This document shows, piece by piece, positions 44,779-57,710 of a stretch of DNA of 64,000 nt (its first letter is position 1; each line of letters opens with the position of its first letter). Source of the DNA: Natrinema sp. CBA1119. GTDB lineage: Archaea > Halobacteriota > Halobacteria > Halobacteriales > Natrialbaceae. Position numbers and translations under genes: made by a program. The stretch is taken from positions 3,658,001 to 3,722,000 of the forward strand of contig NZ_PDBS01000001.1 of assembly GCF_002572525.1 (NCBI RefSeq), in the 5' to 3' direction. Under the pieces are notes generated by a model. The model saw nothing but the letters and a program-made list of their open reading frames with translations, was not told the DNA's origin and searched no databases.

Positions 44779-47523
44779 TCACTCCTCGAGCGATTGCTTC
44801 AGCCGATCGAGTTCCGTCAGCGCCTCGACGGGCGTGAGGTGGGCGAGATCGAGCGCTCGGAGTTCTGCAGCCACGTCTGTCGGCACGTCTCCTCCGTCTG
44901 TGGTAGCTGCCGATTCCGCGATCTCGGTTGCTTCGGGCACCGCATCCTCGTTCGAATCACGAGCGGTCGACCTGTCGTCACTCTCCGTCTCGAGGGCATC
45001 GTCCGCTTCGCCCGCGACCAGGATCCGCGCGCGGTCGACAACGGAGTCGGGGACGCCGGCCGCGGTCGCGACCTCGACGCCGTACGAGCCCGTCGCCGCG
45101 CCGGGCGCGATCTCGTGATGGAAGACGACCTCGCCGTCGACCTGCTCGACCTCGAAATGCAGCGTGAACGCGGCCGCGAGGTCGTCGGCGAGTTCGGTCA
45201 GCGGGTGATGGTGGGTCGCGAAGAGGGTCGTCGCACCGACCGCGTCGTGGAGGTGTTCGGTGATCGCCTGCGCGATGGCCATCCCGTCGGCCGTCGAGGT
45301 CCCCCGTCCGACTTCGTCCAGGAGGACGAGCGAGTGCTCGTCGGCCTCCCGCAGGATGGTCGCGAGTTCGTCCATCTCTACCATGAACGTCGATCGCCCG
45401 CCAGCGATGTCGTCGCTGGCCCCGACGCGGGTGAAAATCCGATCGACCGGCGTGATCCGGGCCGCGCTAGCGGGGACGAAACTTCCGACCTGCGCCAGCA
45501 GGACGATCTGGGCAACCTGCCGCATGTAGGTCGACTTCCCAGACATGTTCGGCCCCGTGATCACCGCCAGCCGCCGATCGCGCGCGAATCGGGCGTCGTT
45601 CGGGACGAACGACTCCTGCATGCGCTCGACGACGGGATGGCGACCGCCCTCGATCTCGAGGGTCTGACTCCCGTTGCGATCGAGAATCTCTGGCCGGCAG
45701 TAGTCGTACTGGGCCGCGGCGCTCGAGAGGGAGACGAGCGCGTCCAGCGTCGCGAGCGCCTCGGCGAGCCTCTGGACGCGTTCGACCTCGTCTGCGATCT
45801 CTCGGCGGACCTCGCAGAACAGTTCGTACTCGCGTTCATCCGCGCGTTCTTCCGCGCCGACGATCTGATCCTCGCGCTCCTTGAGTTCCGGCGTGACGAA
45901 CCGCTCGGAGTTCTTGAGGGTCTGGCGGCGCTGATAGTCCTCGGGCACAGACTCGAGGTTCGGGTTCGTCACCTCGATGTAGTAGCCGTGGACCGAGTTG
46001 TAGCCGACCTTCAACGAGTCGACCCCCGTCCGCTCGCGTTCGCGCTCCTCGAGGTCGTCGATCCACCGTTTGCCGTCGCGGGCGGTCCCGCGCAGGTCGT
46101 CCAGATCGTCGTCGTACCCCTCCGCGATGATGTCCCCCTCGGTGATCTCGATCGGCGGGTCCGAGACGATCGCGTCCTCGATCAGCTCGCGGATGTCGGC
46201 CAGCGGATCGAGGGCCTCGTGGAGCCGTTGCAGTCGCTCACAGTCCGCGTCGGCGAGCTCCTCGCGAACGTCGGGAACGACGGCGAGGGTGTCCCGCAGC
46301 GAGCGCAGATCTCTGGCGTTCGCCCGCTCGCGGGAGATCCGTCCGATCAGCCGCTCGAGATCGTAGACCGACCGCAACCGGTCGTGAAGCCGCTCGCGCG
46401 TCTGGACCGCGCTCGTGAGTTCCTCCACGGCGTCCAGCCGCGCCTCGATCCGGTCGGGCTCGAGCAGCGGCCGCCGGAGCCAGTCCCTGAGCTTTCGGCC
46501 GCCGAGCGCGCTGGCGGTGTCGTCGAGCACGCCGATCAGCGTCGCCTCGTCCCGCCCGTGAACGGCACGGGGTTCGAACAGCTCGAGGCTCCGCAGGGCG
46601 ACGGCGTCCAGCAGCAGGTACTCCCGCGGATCGTATCGCGTGAGGTGGGTGAGATACTCGAGGTGTGCGTCGTCACTCTCGATACCGTCCGCAGCTCCGG
46701 AATCGTCCTCGATCTCGTCGTCCGCTTCACCGCGTTCGCCGACGTGTGTGCCGCCGCGGACGTACTCCGCATAGGCGAGCACCGCGCCGCAGGCTCGAAT
46801 CTCGGCGTCGCTCGCGAGCAGCGCATCGGGGTTACGAAAGTACGCGGAGAGTTTTTCGCCCGCCCGCTCGCGGTCGAACGCGCTCTCGTCGTACGGCGTA
46901 ACCATGCAGTTATCGGGAACGAGATCGGCGGGCGCGTCCGGGCCGACGACGGCCTCCGCGGGATCGAACCGACTCACCTCGTCGACGATCGACTCCCTCG
47001 AGGTGGAACTCGTGGCGAGGAAGTCACCCGTCGAGACGTCGAGTAACGCCAGCGCGAGTTCGGGGTCTTCGCCGGCGGCTGCGTCGCCGCGAGCCACCGC
47101 GGCCACGAAGTTGTTGTCGTCACTGGCGAGCAGTTCGTCCTCGGTGAGCGTCCCGGGGGTGATAACTCGGGTGACGGCTCGCTCGACGACGCCCGACGTC
47201 TCGCCGGGCTCTTCGACCTGATCAGCCACCGCGACCCGGTAGCCGGCCTCGAGCAACTCCTCGATGTACGACTCGGCGTTGTCGATCGGGATGCCCGACA
47301 TCGGGTACTCGCCGGTGTTGTCCTCCCGGCTGGTCAGCGCGATTTCGAGTAGGCGTGCCGTCCGTTCGGCCGCGCCGCAGAACGTCTCGTAGAAGTCCCC
47401 GACCTGAAAGAGGACGATCGCGTCGTCGTAGCGCGCGCAGAGATCGTGATACTGGCGCATCATCGGCGTCAGCTCGTCGCGTATCTCGGCCATCTCCTCG
47501 GGAGGGCCAAGCGCCCGATCCAT
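44779..47523 (-). CDS. mutS: DNA mismatch repair protein MutS
   Basis: 914 residues. The mismatch-reading F-x-E is F44-Y45-E46 (VGDFYETF) in domain I. Connector, lever and clamp domains follow, then the ATPase with Walker [16 protein letters not shown], Walker [13 protein letters not shown] and the THHH switch. The C-terminus has a disordered acidic stretch before a final helix. It is of the MutS1 type. ATG 47523 is supported by GGTATTTC about 27 bases upstream; a longer frame is unlikely. No mutL is in the window. Confidence 0.95.
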
Positions 47524-47838
47524 ACGTAAATTCGGCCGCCCGACGCTGAAATACCTTGCTGGATCGGCTGCGTTTCGGGCTCGAGAGCCTCTCGTATCAA
47601 CTGACGCGATTTGCGATTTACACATCGATCGCACAGTTCGCGGTTTTCGCTCACCGTTCGCGTTCCCGCGGTTCTCGCTCACTTCGTTCGCTCCGAACCG
47701 CGCTCGCTCCGAACCGCGCTACTATCGTGCGATCGGGTGTGAAGCAACTGTCAGTGGCAACGGAAGCTATCTAATCACGTGACTGTCACAAAACGGGAAG
47801 AGGTATTACGATTCATCGCTCATGAGTGCACAACAGCT
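47524..47838. other. Intergenic region with tandem repeat
   Basis: About 315 bases between divergent mutS and the membrane regulator. TCGCTCCGAACCGCGC occurs twice in tandem (47688-47703, 47704-47719), next to related TTCGCTC modules. A TATTACG box near 47802-47810 could serve the regulator start at 47839. Confidence 0.5.
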
Positions 47839-49215
47839 ATGGAGTCGGATTCGCCGGTCGCGGTCCGCATCTTCGCGTGTCTCGTCGCCGCCGTGCTCCT
47901 CGGCGGCGCGGTCACGGGTACCGTCGCCGGAGCGGCGAGCGTCGGCTCGGTCGCGACGGCGTCGACGGACTCGCTCGAAACGACCGACGACGGAACGACG
48001 AACTCGACCGAGAACACCAGCGAGGAGCTCGAGAGCACGACTGAGAGCCTCGACAATACCACCGAAAACACGACTGACGAGACGGAGAATGCGACCGAGA
48101 ACACGACCGACGGCCTCGAGGGTACGACCAACGAGACGACCGACGGCCTCGAGAATACGACAACCGACCCGGCCGATACCGTAGAAAACACGACCGGCGA
48201 GACGACGGAGACGGTCACCGACACCGTCTCGAACACGACGGAGACCGTCGATGACACCGTCAATAACACGACGACGATCGCCAACGAGACAGTCACGAAC
48301 ACGACGGCAGCCGTCAATGGAACCGTCAACGAGACGACGGCAGTGATCAATGAGACCGTCGGCGAGACGACGGCGGCCGTCAACGAAACCGTCGGGGAAA
48401 CGGCTGAGACTCCCAATGACACAATAACCGGCATCGACGGGAGGCTCGAGCAAGCGATCGGCGGTGCCGCCGCTCCCGTCGATCCGCCGAGCACGAGCGA
48501 AGCGGCCACGAACGCGATCCTCGTCGGGATGCTGGGTGCGATTTCCGCATCCGGTGTCGCAGCGGGCGGAGCAGGCGGGGCCGCCGGGGCCGGCGCGTCC
48601 GGGGCCGCCGGGGGTGCGAGCACCGCGACCGCCGGCTGGCTCCGTCACCTCCGCGAGACGGACCGCCTTCGACGAGCAGCTGCGGACTGCTGGAAGGTCC
48701 TGCCGATCTTTCGGTACAGCCGCTACGACGATTCGGACCCGCTCGAGCACGACTGCCGTGCGGCGATCTACGAGACGGTTCGGGAGCGACCCGGCGCGTA
48801 CCTCTCGGAGGTCAGCGACCGAATCGAGGTACCCCTCTCGACGGTTCGCCATCACGTCCGCGTCCTCGAGGACGAGGGACTGGTGACCGCGCGCAAGGTC
48901 AACGGCAAGCGCCGCTACTTCCTCGAGGACGACGACGCCGAACTCCTGGCCGCCCTCGCGGAGCCGGCAAAGCGCCAGGTGCTCGAGACGATCGCCGAGT
49001 TCGGACGCGCGCCCAACGGTCGGCTCGCTGACGCGCTCGAGCGCGACCCGAGCACGGTGTCCCACCACCTCGCCGCGCTCGAGGACGACGGACTCGTCGT
49101 GCGCAAAAAAGACGGCCGCTCGATGGTCAATGAACTGCCGCCGCGGGTCGAGGCAGCGCTGGCTGACGAACCGGCCGCCGAAACCGACTCGCGAGCGGTT
49201 CCGGCCGACGACTGA
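47839..49215 (+). CDS. Membrane-anchored regulator with two winged helices
   Basis: 458 residues. Order: an N-terminal membrane/signal helix (about 8-33); a Thr/Asn/Glu-rich stalk (about 35-205) with dozens of NxT/NxS sites, hence probably outside and glycosylated; a Gly/Ala-rich membrane helix (about 222-265); then two tandem winged-helix domains (about 300-365, SEVSDRIEVPLSTVRHHVRVLEDEGLV, and 375-435, NGRLADALERDPSTVSHHLAALEDDGLV). ATG 47839 is preferred; a GTG 20 codons earlier is possible. It looks like a one-component system linking the cell surface to DNA. Partner and target are unknown. Confidence 0.8.
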   Translation: MESDSPVAVRIFACLVAAVLLGGAVTGTVAGAASVGSVATASTDSLETTDDGTTNSTENTSEELESTTESLDNTTENTTDETENATENTTDGLEGTTNETTDGLENTTTDPADTVENTTGETTETVTDTVSNTTETVDDTVNNTTTIANETVTNTTAAVNGTVNETTAVINETVGETTAAVNETVGETAETPNDTITGIDGRLEQAIGGAAAPVDPPSTSEAATNAILVGMLGAISASGVAAGGAGGAAGAGASGAAGGASTATAGWLRHLRETDRLRRAAADCWKVLPIFRYSRYDDSDPLEHDCRAAIYETVRERPGAYLSEVSDRIEVPLSTVRHHVRVLEDEGLVTARKVNGKRRYFLEDDDAELLAALAEPAKRQVLETIAEFGRAPNGRLADALERDPSTVSHHLAALEDDGLVVRKKDGRSMVNELPPRVEAALADEPAAETDSRAVPADD

Positions 49216-49340
49216 TACGGTTTGCTGTAACGATTTACCGGTGGGTCCGCAGGGCGGTCGCGGTCCCACAGGCAATGACTTACAGTAGACCGTATGAGTT
49301 CGGGCGCTCGAGGCGTGCAGGGTGTCTCGAGTCGGCCCGG

Positions 49341-49691
49341 TTACTCGCGGTCCGAATCCGCCGTTTCGAAGTACAGGTCCGCGTGCTTTGCACAGCCGGG
49401 GTTGAAGGGAGCGTCGCAGGCCGGACAGCTGTAGTCGGCCGCGAGATAGTCGGGGACGGTGAGTTCGGTCCCGCAGCCGCCACACAGCACGGACGGCTCG
49501 TCGAACCGGGCTCGAGGCCACGGCACGGCCTCGTGGTCCGTCGTTTCCTCGTGGCAGCGAAAACAGGGATAGTAGCGCTCGCAGCAGGTGAATTTGAACG
49601 CGACCACGTCGCGGTCGGTGTCGTAGTGGGTACACCGGGTTTCCGGACCGACCTCGACGCCGTGGACCGTGTGGCCTCCGATCGATTGCAC
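49341..49691 (-). CDS. CHY zinc-finger protein
   Basis: 116 residues with the CHY zinc-finger pattern: HGVEVGPETRCTHYDTDRDVVAFKF, CCERYYPCFRCHEE and LCGGCGTEL, then CPACDAPFNPGCAKHADLYF. The many Cys/His pairs bind several zinc ions. In archaea the role is unknown. The GTG at 49691 is chosen because it begins the conserved part; an in-frame TTG at 49763 is less likely. Confidence 0.82.
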   Translation of the reverse strand: MQSIGGHTVHGVEVGPETRCTHYDTDRDVVAFKFTCCERYYPCFRCHEETTDHEAVPWPRARFDEPSVLCGGCGTELTVPDYLAADYSCPACDAPFNPGCAKHADLYFETADSDRE

Positions 49692-50673: not shown

Positions 50674-51228
50674 TTACTCGAACTCGGCGGTATCGCCGCG
50701 TCGGTAACGGTCGAGTCGGCGGTAGCCGTGAACGGTGGCGTCGGTGTCGAGTTCGATCTCGTAGCGGCCGATGATGTCCTGGGTGTCGGGGACGGCTCGG
50801 CGCTCGACGACCTCGACGACGGCGCGCCAGCCGTCGTCGGTGGGGGAGATCTCGCTGACGCCGTCGAACTCGTGGCCGATGAGTTGCCCGGCGGTCGACT
50901 GCACGGTGTTTCGGACCGCGAGGATGCCCGCGATCTCCTCCTGTTCGACATCGGCTTCCTCGTCGACCTCCCCGGGATCGGTCTTCTCCTCCGCGGTCAT
51001 CGCCGTCGTTCCGCGGGATCGGGGCTGCTCAACGTCGCCGCTCTCGGCCGTGTCGTCCGGTTGGTCGGCCTGTTCTTCCTCTTGGGCTGTCTGACTGTCG
51101 CTCACTGTGTGATCACTCTCGTCGTGTTGGAAGCAGAAGCCGTCATCCTGCGCCGGCCGTGAGCAGCGCTCGCCGTCCGTGGTGAGAGCCTTGCACTGCT
51201 CCTGTGATTGCGTGTCGGCTTCGGCCAT
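50674..51228 (-). CDS. gvpO: Gas vesicle protein GvpO with N-terminal zinc knuckle
   Basis: 184 residues. The C-terminal half (GWRAVVEVVERRAVPDTQDIIGRYEIELD, then GYRRLDRYRRGD) is GvpO, required for normal gas vesicle formation in Halobacterium. The N-terminus is different from the Halobacterium protein: C12, C22, C32 and H35 form a C-x9-C-x9-C-x2-H motif of the DUF5763 kind. A disordered acidic linker (about 37-95) joins the two. It is the third gene after gvpA and gvpN on the minus strand. Confidence 0.88.
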   Translation of the reverse strand: MAEADTQSQEQCKALTTDGERCSRPAQDDGFCFQHDESDHTVSDSQTAQEEEQADQPDDTAESGDVEQPRSRGTTAMTAEEKTDPGEVDEEADVEQEEIAGILAVRNTVQSTAGQLIGHEFDGVSEISPTDDGWRAVVEVVERRAVPDTQDIIGRYEIELDTDATVHGYRRLDRYRRGDTAEFE

Positions 51229-51287
51229 TGGCCTGGGTTTGGTTCGGTCTGTCGTTCGTTCGGATCGATCCGATCGCCTCCGTGTGG

Positions 51288-52322
51288 TTAGATCGTCTCG
51301 GTGATCCGCGATCGAAGGTCGTCGATGTCGCCATCGTTCTCGCCGACGAGCTTCGGCGCGAGGACGTCCGTGAAGACGTTCGCCAGCGTCTCGTCGTCGA
51401 ACTCACCGTCCTCGTCGGTCTCGGCGCGGTCGTCGAAGACGGTCAGTCCCTTCGCGGCCGTGATCGCCGCGCGCGTGCCGATGACGATCTCGAGTTCGTC
51501 GCGAAGCGCCCGCGTCGTGTCGACGATGGTCGCGATCTCGTCCTCGGAGAGGTCGACGTGGGCGGCGACGATCTCGCGTTCGGTCTCGTCGTCGTAGTAG
51601 TCGACGTGGACGCCGATGAACCGATCGAGCAGCGCGTCCTGCTGTTCGTGGACGCCGGCGTACTCCACGTCGTTGGATGTGAGGATCGCTCGGAACTCAG
51701 GGTGGACGTCGATCGTCCGGTCGTCGCCGCGTTTGCCCGGCCGCTCGAGGACGCCCTCCTCGAAGACCGAGAGGAGCACGTTGTGGGCGGCGGGGTCGCT
51801 GCGCGAGAACTCGTTGTAGACGAGCGTCGCGCCCTCTCGCACCGCGACGGACAGCGGGTTGTCCACCCAGCGCTCGCGGACGATCTCCGTCTTCTTGCTG
51901 ACGCCGCTGACGAACTGGTCGTTCTCCTCGTAGCGCTCGCCGCCGGCGTGAGAGCCGACGAGCGCGGCGGTGTCGACCGCCTCGTCGCCGTTGAGCCAGA
52001 CGACCGGCCGGCCTCGCTCCGCCGCGGCTGACAGCGCGAGCGCCGTCTTGCCACAGCCCGTCGGCCCGATCAGGTGAACTGGTTGGTCCGCCTCGAGCCA
52101 GCCGTCGATCCGGTCGCGAAGCGATCGGATCGCGTCGGTCTCGACGAACGGTTCGGGGACGACCGTCTCGGGATCGGAGAGGGAGCTGTCGCCGTTCCGT
52201 TCGCCTGCGTTCGATGCCGTTCGCGCGAGCTCTTTCTTCGCTTTGCGACCGTTCTTCTGCTCGCGGCTGGCCGTGATCTTCCTGCCACGGACCGTGCGCT
52301 TGCGCGACGTGTCGTCGGCCAT
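51288..52322 (-). CDS. gvpN: Gas vesicle AAA ATPase GvpN
   Basis: 344 residues, MoxR-like AAA ATPase that enlarges gas vesicles in known systems. Walker A is IGPTGCGKTALAL, the Walker B region is GATLVYNEFSRSDP, and sensor 1 is AILTSNDVEYAG. A basic, disordered leader of about 50 residues precedes the domain. It starts 6 bases after the gvpA stop; in Halobacterium gvpC would lie here, and it is absent. Confidence 0.95.
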   Translation of the reverse strand: MADDTSRKRTVRGRKITASREQKNGRKAKKELARTASNAGERNGDSSLSDPETVVPEPFVETDAIRSLRDRIDGWLEADQPVHLIGPTGCGKTALALSAAAERGRPVVWLNGDEAVDTAALVGSHAGGERYEENDQFVSGVSKKTEIVRERWVDNPLSVAVREGATLVYNEFSRSDPAAHNVLLSVFEEGVLERPGKRGDDRTIDVHPEFRAILTSNDVEYAGVHEQQDALLDRFIGVHVDYYDDETEREIVAAHVDLSEDEIATIVDTTRALRDELEIVIGTRAAITAAKGLTVFDDRAETDEDGEFDDETLANVFTDVLAPKLVGENDGDIDDLRSRITETI

Positions 52323-52328
52323 GGGGAG

Positions 52329-52607
52329 TTATTCCGCCGATTTCGGCGACGATTCGGGGCGAGGCTCGACCTCGAGTTCCTCGAGCTCGTCGAGGTCGCC
52401 CTCCGCCGTGGCCTGCTCAATTTTTGCGATCTCCTCCGCGTAGTGCAGGAAGGTGTCGACCGAGGCGACTACGACGCGGGCCTCGATCGTCAGCAATTCG
52501 ATCCCGACGACAGAAATGCGCGCCCAGACATCGATGACGACGCCCTTGTCGAGGACGCGGTCGAGTACTTCTGCCAGACTCGATGAATCGGGTGTTCGTT
52601 GTGACAT
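52329..52607 (-). CDS. gvpA: Major gas vesicle shell protein GvpA
   Basis: 92 residues. The nearly invariant shell sequence [58 protein letters not shown] (in order) is present. The C-terminal tail is longer and more acidic than the 76-residue Halobacterium GvpA. It forms the gas-permeable, hydrophobic-inside wall. It is the first gene of the leftward operon, divergent from gvpF. Confidence 0.97.
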
Positions 52608-52989
52608 ACCGTCTTGCGTTTGAGCGGCGTCTCGTAACTCGGCTTGCACTGCGACTGCAAGTCGCCCTATCCTGGCGACTGGTCATCGGTGTCGCGAGCC
52701 GCCAAAGTGATACGACAAGTTGCGACTGCAAGCACCACAATAACCCGCTACGGAAGCGAATCGTCCGTGACGATACTTGAGTGCCCGTCACGGCGGGTGC
52801 GGTACCCGTGAGGAGCAATGCTATCGGAGTCCCTATGTCATCCAGCTATCCCATCACCGACCGAGTTGACGGAATACGAACGCGTGTCACCACCCCATCG
52901 GTCTCACTGACGGAATCTGAACGGGCGTCACCTACGGACTCGAGTCAGCGACGAGACAACGATATGATTAGTCAACGAGTGATCTACCG
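52608..52989. promoter_or_regulatory. Divergent gvpA/gvpF promoter region
   Basis: 382 bases between the two gas vesicle operons. TGCGACTGCAAG is found twice in the same direction (52650-52661 and 52721-52732), each lying on the gvpA side. GATATGATT (52961-52969) about 20-25 bases before gvpF is a likely TATA box for the rightward operon. No gene is seen. Confidence 0.6.
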
Positions 52990-53613
52990 ATGAATAACCG
53001 GTACGTCTACGGCGTCGTCGAGTCGGATACCGTCGAATTCGAGACGGACGCGGTCGCCGGTGCCGACCGCGTCTACACGATCTCACACCGGCGACTCGGT
53101 GCCGTCGTCTCGGATATCAACACGACCGATCCCGAGGAGACGGACGAGGACGCCCAGATTCACGACGATGTCCTTCGAGAAATCATGGCGTACGACGACG
53201 GAACGACCGTCGTTCCCATGCAGTTCGGGATGGCCTTCGAGAGCGATCGAGCGCTGAAGAACGTTCTTCGCGGGGCGCGACCGGCCTTCCGACGTGCGAT
53301 GAGCGACATCGAAGGCAAGATCGAACTCGGTCTCAAACTCGTCCGCGAGGAAAACGCCAACGTCGACCGCGAGGCGATCGAGGCAGACGTCGCGGACCGC
53401 CTCGAGCCCATCGCCGCACAGTCCGTCGAAAACGACCTGTTCAGCGACCGGCTCGTGCTGAACCGATCGTATCTCGTCGACGAGACCGAACGCGAGGCGT
53501 TCGACGACGCGGTCGCCGACTTCGAGGACGACCGCGACGATCTCATGGTCCAGTACACGGGGCCGTTCGCACCGTACAGTTTCGTCAACGTGAAAATCGG
53601 AGCCAAGCAGTAA
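52990..53613 (+). CDS. gvpF: Gas vesicle protein GvpF
   Basis: 207 residues, GvpF/GvpL family. The N-terminus NRYVYGVV and the C-terminal VQYTGPFAPYSFVNVKIG are diagnostic. GvpF is an early assembly factor that binds GvpA in Halobacterium. It is the first gene of the rightward operon; gvpD and gvpE, which stand ahead of it in Halobacterium, are missing. Confidence 0.94.
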   Translation: MNNRYVYGVVESDTVEFETDAVAGADRVYTISHRRLGAVVSDINTTDPEETDEDAQIHDDVLREIMAYDDGTTVVPMQFGMAFESDRALKNVLRGARPAFRRAMSDIEGKIELGLKLVREENANVDREAIEADVADRLEPIAAQSVENDLFSDRLVLNRSYLVDETEREAFDDAVADFEDDRDDLMVQYTGPFAPYSFVNVKIGAKQ

Positions 53614-53615
53614 CC

Positions 53616-53870
53616 ATGTTCATCCTCGACGACCTCCTGTTCCGGCCGTTCGTCGGCATCGTCGACGCGCTCCACACGATCGCACTCGACGAGATGTACG
53701 ATGTGGAGAGTCTCGAGGCCGAACTCAAAGAGAATCAGCTCCTGTACGAACTCGGCGAGCGCTCCGAGACGGAGTATCGACGCCGCAAGGACGAACTCAA
53801 GTCGGAACTCGAGACCGCCCGCGAGGTTCACGAGCAGCTCTCGAGCGGCCGCGTGGAGGTGAAAAAATGA
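53616..53870 (+). CDS. gvpG: Gas vesicle protein GvpG
   Basis: 84 residues. The hydrophobic N-terminus FILDDLLFRPFVGIVDALHTIAL is followed by a charged coiled coil with YELGERSETEYRRRKDEL, the GvpG pattern. It is an accessory assembly protein. It starts two bases after gvpF and overlaps gvpH by 4 bases. Confidence 0.93.
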   Translation: MFILDDLLFRPFVGIVDALHTIALDEMYDVESLEAELKENQLLYELGERSETEYRRRKDELKSELETAREVHEQLSSGRVEVKK

Positions 53871-54469
53871 CCGACAGTTCCCCCGACGACGACCGCGACG
53901 AATCGCCCGGCGACGACCGATCCGACGAGCATCGAACCGACGAGAGTCAGATCGACGAGGACGACCACTGGCTCTCGAGCCTGCTGTCCGTCCTGGATTC
54001 GCTCGACGACGGCCCAGCGTCGCGCTCGGGCCGTCACCGCGGCGATCGAACGGTCTTCGATTACGATATCTCGATCCGATCGGGCGACGGCCTCTCGGCG
54101 GACGATTCGTCGCTCGGGCAGAATCCGTTCGGCGACGAGGGATCGCGAGGGAGGAATAGCGATCGATCGCGAAAGCGCCGTATTCGATCGTCTGGTCCCT
54201 CGAGCGACCACCACGTGGCGATCCGGACGCACGAGGACGAACTGCTCGTCACCGCGGACGTCGCCGGGGCCGATCCGGACGACGTGACGGTGGGCTTCGA
54301 CGACTCGACGCTGGTCATCGGCGTCGAAGGATCCGAACTCGATCGCATCGAAATCCCCTGGCCCGAGACGGAGTCCCGGGCGACGATCAAGAACGGGGTG
54401 CTGACCGTCCAGATCAGGCCGGAGACGGCGGAGCGGACGGACGCCGACGGGACGGAGGGCGACGAATGA
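53867..54469 (+). CDS. gvpH: Gas vesicle protein GvpH (Hsp20-like)
   Basis: 200 residues. Residues 1-105 are disordered and charged; the C-terminal 90 form an alpha-crystallin domain (HEDELLVTADVAGADPDDVTVGFDDSTLVIGV and [12 protein letters not shown]). GvpH acts as a chaperone in gas vesicle assembly. It overlaps both neighbours by 4 bases. Confidence 0.9.
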   Translation: MTDSSPDDDRDESPGDDRSDEHRTDESQIDEDDHWLSSLLSVLDSLDDGPASRSGRHRGDRTVFDYDISIRSGDGLSADDSSLGQNPFGDEGSRGRNSDRSRKRRIRSSGPSSDHHVAIRTHEDELLVTADVAGADPDDVTVGFDDSTLVIGVEGSELDRIEIPWPETESRATIKNGVLTVQIRPETAERTDADGTEGDE

Positions 54470-55395
54470 GCGACACCGAGTCCGAGGAAACGTTCGACGC
54501 GCTACTCGAGGACGCGACGGAGAGTCTTGGCCGACTCGAGGAGACGGTCGGCGAGAGCGAGGCGATCGACGACCTCGACGACGATACCCTCGAGACGGTC
54601 GTCGGCGATGTCGATACTCTCGTGCAAGTCGCCGAGGAAGTTGGCGAACTGCTCGAGGCGATGGATCTCAGCGACCTGCCGGAGGCGGTCGACGGGGACG
54701 AACTCCTCGACGCCATCGAACTCGGCGAGATTCCCGACGTGCTGGCGAACGAGGACGACGGCGTGAGCGAACTCGTCGACTTCACGGAGCTGTTCGATGC
54801 GATCGACCTGCTGAACGCCTGGAACGCGGCGGATCTGACCAACCTCTGGGAGAACAAACGCGAACTCGACGACGCCCTCGACGAACTCGAGGACGGCGAC
54901 GACGCCGGGATGGTCGAAGACGCCGTGTCGGACGTCGCGAACGGCGACGAAGACGGCGATGGCCTGTTCGGAGACGAAGACGAAAACGGGGACGGCGTGC
55001 TCGACACGGGAATGGACGCCGGCTCCGCTGCGAAGGAAGCGCTCGGCGACATCGATGTCGCCGAGGACCCGGAGGCCTATCAGGCCGCAATCCAGCAGCA
55101 GGCGATGGAAGGCATCGACGCCTTCCGGACGGCGCTGCTCGAGACGCACGAGACGTTCGAGAAGCTCTACGAGTTCAACCGCGAGAAGATGCGCCGGCAG
55201 GATACGAGTACGAACTCGCGAAATCCGACCGCGGCGTCGACGATTTCGACCGATCGGCTCGACCTCGGCAGCGGCACCCGCTATTCGACGGTGCCACAGG
55301 CGGTCAAACTCTCGACGGCACCGACGCGAAAGCGGATCTACGGACGCCGGTTCGAACTCGAGCGGGAACGACAACGGAGGAAGAACAATGAGTGA
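54466..55395 (+). CDS. Large acidic protein at the gvpI position
   Basis: 309 residues. Residues 1-190 are very acidic and helical, with repeats such as LEEAMDLSDLPEAVDG-like Leu/Asp/Glu blocks and an EF-like run DGDGLFGDEDENGDGVLD. The middle (about 195-245) is an amphipathic helix region (AIQQQAMEGIDAFRTALLETHETFEKLYEF). The last 30 residues are basic (RKRIYGRRFELERERQRRKNNE). Location and coupling (4-base overlap with gvpH) mark it as a gvp operon member; GvpI is usually only about 120-150 residues, so it may be an enlarged GvpI or a different protein. Confidence 0.65.
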   Translation: MSDTESEETFDALLEDATESLGRLEETVGESEAIDDLDDDTLETVVGDVDTLVQVAEEVGELLEAMDLSDLPEAVDGDELLDAIELGEIPDVLANEDDGVSELVDFTELFDAIDLLNAWNAADLTNLWENKRELDDALDELEDGDDAGMVEDAVSDVANGDEDGDGLFGDEDENGDGVLDTGMDAGSAAKEALGDIDVAEDPEAYQAAIQQQAMEGIDAFRTALLETHETFEKLYEFNREKMRRQDTSTNSRNPTAASTISTDRLDLGSGTRYSTVPQAVKLSTAPTRKRIYGRRFELERERQRRKNNE

Positions 55396-55489
55396 CCCAT
55401 TACTACAGCGATCGAACGGCTGTGAGGGGAGGACGACTGACTTCGACCCCGAGCGGAGCAACGCCGGAGGTGAGCGCCATGGTCGATGA
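55388..55489 (+). CDS. Possible 33-residue peptide between gvpI-like gene and gvpJ
   Basis: ATG at 55388 overlaps the end of the previous gene (ATGAGTGA) and its frame ends at 55489, eight bases into gvpJ. The peptide MSDPLLQRSNGCEGRTTDF... has no known relative. Overlaps at both ends fit translational coupling, but chance is possible. Confidence 0.25.
   Translation: MSDPLLQRSNGCEGRTTDFDPERSNAGGERHGR
55466..55473 (+). promoter_or_regulatory. Ribosome binding site of gvpJ
   Basis: GGAGGTGA ends 5 bases before the ATG at 55479 and matches the 3' end of archaeal 16S rRNA well. It decides the gvpJ start against a GTG at 55392. Confidence 0.7.
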
Positions 55490-56090
55490 GTTCCAGCCCA
55501 GTCGGCAGCAGGCTGACCTCGCCGAAGTCGTCGAGATGCTCCTGGAAAAAGGGATCGTCATCAACGCCGACATCGCCGTCTCGATCGGAGATACACAACT
55601 GCTCGGCGTGCAAGTCCGGGCCGCGATCGCCTCCTTCGAGACCGCGGCGAAGTACGGCCTCGAGTTCCCCGAGGGGACGGACATGCGCCGCGTCGCCGAG
55701 GCGGTCGATGATCCCGAACTCGCGGAGATGGACCGGCCGAACCCGGTGATCGATCCGACTCGAGGCGTCAACGTTACCGCCGATGAAGACGACGCTAACG
55801 GCGAAGCGAGCGCCGACAGCGGCGAGCGCAACGTCGATAGCGATGAGGCGAGCGAGCGCGACGCCGCCGGCAGCGACGAAGCGCTGGTGAGCGAACGCCT
55901 CGGGGCCAGACCGAACCCCGACAGACCGACCAGCGGCGGATTCGACCTGCTCAGCGACGACTCGGCCGACGAGGGCCAATCTGACGCGGAATCGGAAGCC
56001 GACGGCTCCGAAACTGACAGCTCCGAGAATGACGGCTCCGAGAGCGACGAGGCCACCCCGGAAGCGGAGCCGGAGGGTGAGAGTTCATGA
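55479..56090 (+). CDS. gvpJ: Gas vesicle protein GvpJ
   Basis: 203 residues. The first 90 residues are GvpA-like ([45 protein letters not shown]), the GvpJ minor shell/assembly protein. The C-terminal 115 residues are a disordered Asp/Glu/Ser tail, much longer than in the 114-residue Halobacterium GvpJ. It overlaps gvpK by 4 bases. Confidence 0.93.
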
Positions 56091-56431
56091 CGGCGATCGA
56101 CGTCGGCGACGGGGAGGACGCGCGACAGGGACTCGTTACCCTTGTCATAACCGTTGTTGAAATCCTAATCGATGCCCTCGAGCGCGAGGCGGTCCGTCGA
56201 ATGGAGTCTGGTAACCTGTCGGACGAGGAGATCGAACGCCTCGGGAGCCAACTCGCGACGATCGAGGCCGAGATCGAACAGCTCAAAGCCGACGAAGAGA
56301 TCGAGGACGGCGTCGACGATCTCCGGGGCGATCTGGACGGGCTGGTCAACGACGCGATCGAACAGCTTCACGGCGAGCCGACCGCCACGCAGAAACCCGG
56401 TTACTCCGTGTTCGGAGGTGAGGGCGAGTGA
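56087..56431 (+). CDS. gvpK: Gas vesicle protein GvpK
   Basis: 114 residues. The GvpK pattern is [39 protein letters not shown] (in order), followed by a coiled coil ([17 protein letters not shown]). It is an accessory protein needed for vesicle formation. It overlaps gvpJ and gvpL by 4 bases each. Confidence 0.94.
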
Positions 56432-57396
56432 GCTCCGACGGTGCGAACGACGGTGACGGTGCCGCCAAGGGACTCGAGGCGCTCGACGAGCAGCCGGCCG
56501 GCGAGCACACCGAGACGCCGGCTATCGACGAGGGGCGCTACCTGTACTGTCTCGTGCGGGCCGACGAGGACGCCGAACTCGAGACGACAGGCGTCGACGA
56601 TGAACCGGTCTCGATCGTCACTGAAAACGGAATCAGTGCCGTCGTCCACGCGTGTGACGGCATCTACGACTCGGCGGACCTCACACAGATCCGCCGCTGG
56701 CTCGTCCGCCACCAGACGGTCGTCGACGAGGCGGGGCAGGCCTTCGGAACGCCGATCCCGTTCCAGTTCGACACGATTCTGCGCGGCGACGACGCCGCCG
56801 TCCGCAAGTGGCTCCGCGAGGAGTCCGAGACCCTCGAGCGCGCCCTCTCTGGGCTGGCCGACCACTGGGAGTACCGCGTCGAAGTGGTCGAAGTCGATCC
56901 GATCAGCGACGAGGCGCTGATCGAGCGCGACGAACGGCTGCGCGAACTGGACGAGCAGATCGGCGGCTCCGGGGAGGGAACGGCCTTCCTGCTCGAGAAG
57001 CAGTTCGACCAGCGGCTGACTGAACTCCGAGCCGCACGACGGGAATCGCTGACCGCCGACCTCGAGGAGCGACTGGCCGCAAAATCACGGGAAGTCCACG
57101 CGCTCGAGCGATCCCCGAGCGCGAAACTCTCGAACGACATAACCGACACCGAGTCGGAAACGGTCGGAGACTCGAGCGACGGATCGGACGAGTCCAGTGA
57201 CGGCGAAACCCTCTGTCGGCTCACGGTGCTGGCCCACGAGGACGACGAGGAAGCCATCGGCTCGATACTCGACGACGTGGCGGCGAACGACGGACTCGAG
57301 GTCAGGTTCACGGGACCGTGGCCGCCGTACACGTTCGCACCGGAACTCGGCGGTGACGGGACCGCCGCGGACGAGCGGGCGAATCCACAGCCATGA
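56428..57396 (+). CDS. gvpL: Gas vesicle protein GvpL
   Basis: 322 residues, GvpF/GvpL family. The N-terminal domain starts [15 protein letters not shown] after a disordered leader of about 35 residues; the C-terminal part ends [14 protein letters not shown], the mark of the family. An acidic insert ([21 protein letters not shown]) interrupts the last third. GTG start with GGAGGTGA seven bases before it. GvpL binds many Gvp proteins in Halobacterium. Confidence 0.93.
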
Positions 57397-57710
57397 GACC
57401 GCAAAAGAACGACGATGCGCTCGTCGACGTGCTCGACGTGTTGCTCAGAGACGGTGCGATCCTCCGCGCGGACGTGATCGTCTCCGTCGCGGATATTCCG
57501 CTGGTCGGGATCAAGCTCACGGCGGCCATCGCCGGCATGGAGACGATGACGGAGTACGGCCTCTTCGAAGAGTGGGACGCCACCCGCCGGAATGCGGCAG
57601 TCAGCCGACGCCAGTACGATCGGTCGGAACTCGACGAGGACTCGTTCGACGAACTCGGTGTCGGTCGCTCCCACGAGGACGCCGAACCCGGAGACGAGCC
57701 GTCGAGTTGA
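57393..57710 (+). CDS. gvpM: Gas vesicle protein GvpM
   Basis: 105 residues. A GvpA-like domain (ALVDVLDVLLRDGAILRADVIVSVADIPLVGIKLTAAIAGMETM, in order) is followed by a short polar tail. GvpM is a minor GvpA paralogue needed early in assembly. It overlaps gvpL by 4 bases and is the last gene of the rightward operon. Confidence 0.93.
   Translation: MRPQKNDDALVDVLDVLLRDGAILRADVIVSVADIPLVGIKLTAAIAGMETMTEYGLFEEWDATRRNAAVSRRQYDRSELDEDSFDELGVGRSHEDAEPGDEPSS

Follow-up and report, generated by a model that had tools for sequence, protein, structure and literature searches.

Archaeal membrane-held transcription regulators are common in genomes, and few of them have been studied. The accessible part of a survey of transmembrane transcription regulators (TTRs), proteins that combine a DNA-binding domain with at least one transmembrane region, reports 1,384 of them in archaea and at least one in 367 of 404 species (PMC10269533). 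Sulfolobus ArnR and ArnR1, as described in excerpts of PMC6396743, consist of an N-terminal HTH and two C-terminal membrane helices. In the available sections of PMC8241124, HVO_1944 and HVO_0306 are each listed as 'probable transmembrane glycoprotein/HTH domain protein' with predicted Sec processing; HVO_1944 is N-glycosylated (one glycopeptide, 16 spectra) and HVO_0306 is an O-glycosylation candidate. The portions of the literature surveyed contained no description of the regulator family treated here, and the accessible text on CsmR (PMC13286277) gives no link to it.

The gene studied lies in a 64-kb stretch of the genome of Natrinema sp. CBA1119 (the window, i.e., the whole of the DNA analysed). 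With a probability of about two in three, its product is a membrane-tethered one-component transcription regulator acting by the mechanism set out below. An earlier note on this DNA had proposed a surface-to-DNA regulator; the regulator in one chain is retained as the best reading, while the layout is not unusual and dense sequons are not general in the family. The family is widespread and barely studied, and its overall design is already known in archaea.

Gene and family

The 458-aa ORF occupies positions 47839-49215 on the plus strand, with an ATG start and a TGA stop, as given by the ORF list and the translation. An in-frame GTG at 47779 would give 478 aa if used as the start; an alignment of the sequences upstream in relatives points to 47839 instead. 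Among ATG codons, M231 is the sole in-frame one that could start a product downstream of 47839 and ahead of the winged helices, and this position is Leu in five of seven aligned rows. In the close pair L001/L002, dN is 0.042 and dS 0.177 overall (425 codons); the corresponding values are 0.059/0.145 for the stalk, 0.026/0.246 for the winged-helix part and 0.072/0 for the signal part (first 34 codons), which indicates coding constraint on the ORF. A minus-strand ORF at 47806-49635, with a single Pfam match below the cut-off, was rejected as the mirror frame of GC-rich coding DNA.

A scan of genome contigs gave 57 loci, all of them haloarchaeal by name. In a sample of 148 genomes from the phylum, 19 have a match with E of 1e-20 or lower, the gene's own genome and shorter relatives being counted. 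Family-wide comparisons were made on 67 haloarchaeal rows, which include the protein itself and some near-copies (e.g., L073 and L077). Left out were L041 (chimeric ORF), L057 and L067 (contig ends), L084 (rearranged), L060 (taken as the same as L059) and L071 (motif not found). From L001-L030, 16 loci were used; L004, L007, L019, L020, L022, L023 and L024 were taken as duplicates of named loci because their contigs are equal in length, L021 was omitted since its frame could not be recovered, and L025-L030 are relatives with tandem winged helices in a shorter chain. L041 has an oxidoreductase-like N-terminus running into the winged-helix part and is a chimera or an assembly artefact, while L059 and L060 are apparently the same regulator on two scaffolds of one Natronomonas gomsonensis assembly.

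Predicted membrane topology

The chain begins with a signal peptide or first hydrophobic helix (residues 1-34; 47839..47940, plus strand), assigned by hydrophobicity. Its best 19-residue Kyte-Doolittle (KD) mean is 2.42, compared with at most 1.03 at the N-termini of seven other window genes, taken as soluble and given a lenient choice of start. A first hydrophobic segment with KD of at least 1.78 is found in 67 of 67 rows (own protein counted), a figure biased upwards because start codons were picked partly by hydrophobicity. The signal peptide contains no twin arginine, and the Sec route is therefore the probable one.

The second hydrophobic segment, a predicted membrane helix, spans residues 223-244 (48505..48570, plus strand), as placed by KD values, the alignment and the AlphaFold model. 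Its hydrophobicity is modest (KD 1.7 at residues 226-244); L228, G230, L232, G233 and A234 are invariant across seven rows, and 62 of the 67 rows have a second segment with KD of at least 1.1. The AlphaFold model, for which 42 of 45 listed rows were used, contains a 21-residue helix at ~219-239 of low confidence (pLDDT about 50-58), followed by a non-helical Gly/Ala stretch and then by a helix at ~261-291. Since the Gly/Ala run (residues 245-262; 48571..48624, plus strand) is modelled as mostly non-helical and comes after the membrane helix, it is better read as a linker and is probably not the membrane helix itself. Thus, of the Gly/Ala membrane helix described in the earlier note, a modest hydrophobic helix stands, with the Gly/Ala run placed behind it; an N-terminal signal-like helix is predicted, and the order of the parts is confirmed. 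The Arg-rich juxtamembrane helix (residues ~261-291; 48619..48711, plus strand) is assigned from the model, at low to moderate confidence, and from its charge.

Residues 36-222 hold a single K/R residue (one Arg, no Lys) versus eight in residues 269-295. Over the 62 rows with a second segment, the median K/R density is 0.018 in the stalk and 0.122 between the second segment and the winged helices, and the density is higher after the second segment in 61 of the 62, the exception being L058. This charge asymmetry fits a predicted arrangement with the stalk outside and the winged helices inside. The membrane region that forms part of the TTR definition would correspond here to the KD 1.7 segment, judged on a hydrophobicity scale only, together with the charge asymmetry and the low-confidence modelled helix.

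Of the 67 haloarchaeal rows, 62 show the whole set of parts, from the signal helix and the stalk to a second hydrophobic segment and the winged helices. In the five other rows the second segment is low: L053 has a low score, and L076, L083, L085 and L087 lack the segment. The latter four are short proteins with a signal-like N-terminus and tandem winged helices, which form a basal group among the haloarchaeal rows in the tree (98/68). A cleaved signal would put their winged helices outside, and the simple topology does not account for them.

Stalk and glycosylation sites

Residues 35-222 (47941..48504, plus strand) form, by composition, an acidic, Thr-rich stalk of low complexity. It carries 19 N-x-S/T sequons between residues 55 and 193, compared with 6.8 expected in the shuffled stalk; none of 1000 shuffles reaches 19. 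The earlier note had described a glycosylated stalk with dozens of such sites: the long stalk and the sequon excess are borne out, and the number is 19, not dozens. A repeat search of the stalk DNA found 33-bp (11-aa) and 66-bp tandem repeats at 48030-48161 and 48198-48393 (plus strand), and part of the sequon excess can come from the 33-bp repeats. The excess is real but no proof of selection, because repeat growth multiplies any motif in the repeated unit. The Natrinema sp. CBA1119 genome encodes AglB (883.9 bits, cut-off 450), which together with the 19 sequons makes N-glycosylation of the stalk possible, as a prediction.

Family-wide, the sequons exceed those of the row's own shuffles at p<0.05 in 39 of the 67 rows and do not in 28. 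Among the 62 rows with a second hydrophobic segment, stalks range from 113 to 1264 residues (median 228) and carry 0 to 22 sequons (median 5). Four of these stalks are free of sequons, and dense glycosylation sites are therefore not a property of the family. As judged from the aligned sequences, stalk length, stalk sequence and sequons are not conserved. The longest stalk, of 1264 residues, belongs to L069, a 1532-aa chain.

Juxtamembrane motif and winged helices

The Arg-rich helix leads into the juxtamembrane motif FRYSRYDDSDPLEHD (residues 291-305; 48709..48753, plus strand), defined in a seven-row alignment that counts the protein itself. The first winged helix (residues 306-365; 48754..48933, plus strand) is of the HTH_20 / HVO_0163_N type according to Pfam and AlphaFold, and the second (residues 366-441; 48934..49161, plus strand) is of the ArsR/MarR type according to Pfam, NCBIfam, AlphaFold and structure comparison. 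Pfam matches over the cut-off are HTH_20, HTH_5, MarR and HTH_HVO_0163_N, and both domains are modelled at pLDDT about 90-98. The two tandem MarR/ArsR-type winged helices read in the earlier note are thus confirmed, and the DNA-binding domain of the TTR definition is present.

PF24266 reaches 44.4 bits against a gathering score of 31 and matches 13 of 13 rows of a 13-row family alignment at E 0.001. NF033788 (ArsR/SmtB) scores 84.1 bits against 55 for the whole protein, in two stretches. The C-terminal winged helix resembles ArsR/SmtB structures (Z 13.7, rmsd 3.1-3.4 over 91-97 residues) in a comparison that covered mainly model residues 123-231. ArsR/SmtB metalloregulators carry a cysteine-pair metal site in the winged helix; no such site is present here, Cys occurring only at residues 14, 284 and 306. 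ScpB chains were top in Foldseek, with an rmsd above 10, and this was not read as kinship.

In the seven-row alignment, invariant positions number 13 of 188 in the stalk, 9 of 44 in the membrane and Gly/Ala part, 13 of 15 in the juxtamembrane motif, the most conserved segment, and 27 of 60 and 35 of 76 in the first and second winged helix. This pattern suggests that function is placed in the relay and DNA-binding part, with the stalk free to drift. Pfam searches recognised no folded sensor domain. That result and the unconserved stalk would suit a chromosome tether or a surface glycoprotein, whose winged helices would serve only to anchor DNA at the membrane or would no longer bind it; conservation of both winged helices and the palindrome found upstream of 13 of 30 subfamily genes argue against such a role, which we consider very improbable.

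A variant compatible with the membrane-tethered regulator is regulated proteolysis, in which an envelope signal would trigger cleavage of a membrane-held precursor in or near the small-residue helix and release the winged helices. Membrane helices rich in Gly, Ala and Ser are a feature of rhomboid and site-2 protease substrates, and here the membrane helix and linker are rich in these residues, with a flexible linker modelled by AlphaFold between the helix and the DNA-binding part. Strong conservation of the motif, as opposed to the membrane and Gly/Ala part, fits tethered signalling at least as well, and release by cleavage seems unlikely.

Candidate operator and promoter

Comparison of upstream regions revealed a perfect palindrome, GTGACTGTCAC, at 47779..47789, 60 nt upstream of the start codon, as a candidate operator. 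It is followed at 47790..47810 (plus strand) by a promoter-like stretch, AAAACGGGAAGAGGTATTACG, which is BRE/TATA-like by eye and conserved before orthologues in 15 aligned upstream regions. An archaeal activator could act just upstream of a promoter, where the palindrome sits. Within 120 nt upstream and with at most one mismatch, GTGACNGTCAC precedes 13 of 30 subfamily genes, the own gene included, each time at 58-61 nt; 300 single-base shuffles averaged 0.12 of 30 and never exceeded 2, and only 1 of 37 genes from other subfamilies has it. The count of 13 is inflated by shared ancestry, 11 of these genes belonging to the own genus or to loci clustering with it in the tree, and the other 17 subfamily genes lack the palindrome at that stringency. 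The fixed distance of the palindrome from the start suggests autoregulation, for which GTGACNGTCAC is the candidate site.

Exact GTGACNGTCAC occurs in 29 copies in the genome, versus two for the reversed pattern. By eye, only the own-gene copy precedes a promoter-like stretch with a start 60 nt away, the minus orientation having been viewed only where A+T was at least 0.45. A regulon defined by exact GTGACNGTCAC was therefore rejected, and no target other than the own promoter was found among the exact copies in the whole genome. With at most one mismatch, the 64 kb hold 12 sites, the perfect copy counted.

Gas vesicle genes in the neighbourhood

The gene is divergent from a minus-strand gene at 44779..47682 (from the ORF list), presumably MutS-like by recognition of its sequence, and convergent with a CHY zinc-finger gene identified by Pfam (49341..49691, minus strand). 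Beyond the latter lie gas vesicle genes (50674..57710): gvpO-gvpN-gvpA on the minus strand, gvpF-like, gvpJ, gvpL and gvpM on the plus strand, and three others. The products of gvpO, N, A, J, L and M score over the NCBIfam cut-offs, and that of the gvpF-like gene scores under. The gvpA-gvpF gap of about 340 bp leaves no room for gvpD or gvpE, and gvpD was not found in the Natrinema sp. CBA1119 genome at E 0.001. Clusters lacking gvpC and gvpDE, with no gas vesicles formed, are reported in the accessible text of PMC4390858 for Halopiger xanaduensis, Natrinema pellirubrum, Natrialba magadii and others.

The same order, with the gene between mutS and the CHY zinc-finger gene and then the gas vesicle cluster, recurs in close relatives. 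Flanks of up to 8 kb contain gvp genes at 13 of the 16 closest named loci (L031-L046), those of L031, L042 and L044 being without them. Co-occurrence was assessed in family f1, 37 genomes that are Natrialbaceae as inferred from named relatives, with the gene counted as present at E below 1e-60. In 14 of the 17 genomes of this family that carry the gene, gvpO lies within 7 kb of it; in another, G033, the two are 196 kb apart. In a genome of another family (G057), a distant relative (L105, 35% identity) is found at a distance of 2.7 kb from gvpO, on the far side of the zinc-finger gene, in the order gvpA-gvpO-CHY zinc finger-regulator and with no mutS match in the stretch. In the tree, 25 of the 26 rows labelled as gvp-linked fall into one 30-row clade (100/88), and this label requires six changes. 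The zinc-finger gene itself occurs with gvpO in 25 of 36 stretches that hold gvpO, and likewise in G033 (L108), whose regulator is distant.

This proximity, the absence of gvpD at the threshold used, the related clusters without gvpDE in the accessible part of PMC4390858, and a one-mismatch copy of the palindrome at 52781-52791, inside the window's gvpA-gvpF gap, would all suit a dedicated regulator of the adjacent cluster in place of the missing GvpDE. The f1 genomes show no co-occurrence of the gene with gvpO: 15 have both, two the gene alone (G006 and G027, which keep it without gvpO), 17 gvpO alone and three neither, i.e., gvpO in 15 of 17 with the gene and 17 of 20 without it (Fisher p = 1.0). 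In 11 of the 17 genomes with gvpO alone, mutS and the zinc-finger gene are no more than ~310 nt apart, which leaves these loci cleanly without the regulator; the stretches of the other six did not show both genes. The palindrome, at no more than one mismatch, was absent from the 46 other gvpA-gvpF gaps compared (1 of 47, the window's own), and similar two-mismatch copies occur in gaps both with and without the regulator. Since presence is uncorrelated and the palindrome is not conserved in these gaps, control of the gas vesicle module is not our main reading, and a dedicated role of this kind is quite improbable. The gas vesicle link is a conserved neighbourhood and, as a function, putative: a candidate regulator stands beside clusters seemingly without gvpDE, and the co-occurrence test does not support the link. 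When conserved partner genes were sought in other subfamilies, neighbourhoods seemed to vary by subfamily among the stretches listed, where many ORFs were spurious.

Proposed mechanism

The membrane-tethered one-component regulator would work as follows. The signal helix would direct Sec export, leaving the stalk outside as a disordered acidic spacer, which may be N-glycosylated by AglB in this species and for which glycosylation would be optional family-wide. The hydrophobic helix at residues 223-244 is predicted to stop transfer, and the Arg-rich region behind it, judging by its charge, to stay inside. Conservation suggests that the state of the envelope or membrane could reach the tandem winged helices by way of the Arg-rich helix and the FRYSRYDDSDPLEHD motif. 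The winged helices would bind DNA while held at the membrane. Most likely they would occupy the own-promoter palindrome as a dimer, giving autoregulation, and they would have further targets.

A bolder reading, on which the present data do not bear either way, makes the stalk the sensor. The family would then consist of regulators that expose nothing but a disordered stalk, about 110 to 1260 residues long, grown by repeats and glycosylated to a varying degree. The stalk would report the envelope state (S-layer packing, glycosylation or salt) by polymer physics and not by ligand binding, and the signal would reach the membrane-held winged helices via the juxtamembrane motif; in the lineage linked to gas vesicles, these may be tuned by it as well. 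We hold this to be decidedly unlikely as a whole. In this family, a conserved juxtamembrane motif and a candidate operator are combined with a length-variable stalk, and the free variation in stalk length makes stalk sensing amenable to test by swapping or shortening.

Comparison with known regulators

The layout, which the earlier note had thought unusual for a transcription regulator, is shared beyond the 62 haloarchaeal rows. Ten frames of short relatives from other genomes of the phylum (L146, L148, recognised by eye, and L149-L156), whose hosts are probably methanogens, have the signal-like helix, ectodomain, hydrophobic segment and tandem winged helices in common with this protein, but their ectodomain is of a few tens of residues, without the long stalk. 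At least two hydrophobic segments precede the tandem winged helices in seven of the eight frames L149-L156, L154 having one above the threshold, and PF24266 is over the cut-off in L149, the one scanned. The phylogenetic place of the eight rows from other genomes is unsure because the tree warns of long branches.

Within the Natrinema sp. CBA1119 genome, DUF7343 is over the cut-off at 8 of 13 matches. Of six frames read there, four (L160-L163) combine an N-terminal hydrophobic segment with a second one at a distance from it, and in the two scanned (L161 and L163) Pfam confirms DUF7345 and DUF7343. They share with this protein the order of N-terminal hydrophobic segment, outside part, second segment and winged helix, but have a folded DUF7345 ectodomain and one DUF7343 winged helix in place of a stalk and tandem winged helices. 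On this protein DUF7343 scores 16.9 bits, under its 27.6 cut-off; it matches 5 of 13 rows of the 13-row family alignment at E 0.001 (best 2.1e-5), and DUF7345 (cut-off 27.5 bits) is absent among the best 25 of 35 Pfam families, down to E 0.02. The probable methanogen relatives and the DUF7345-DUF7343 proteins make the layout an ordinary one for archaea, and TTRs are widespread according to the accessible part of PMC10269533. Two proteins of the HVO_0163 type in the same genome (L088 and L089) likewise have PF24266 over the cut-off; no signal helix or stalk is visible by eye in their sequences.

HVO_1944 and HVO_0306 are comparable by description only, as given in the available sections of PMC8241124. 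ArnR and ArnR1 are likewise membrane-bound archaeal one-component regulators, but in the excerpts of PMC6396743 their domain order is the reverse, and the protein does not have the ArnR arrangement. It agrees with the TTRs in joining a DNA-binding domain and a predicted membrane region in one chain; the family is not named in the accessible part of PMC10269533, and it differs from the TTRs described there in that a long low-complexity stalk replaces a recognised sensor domain.
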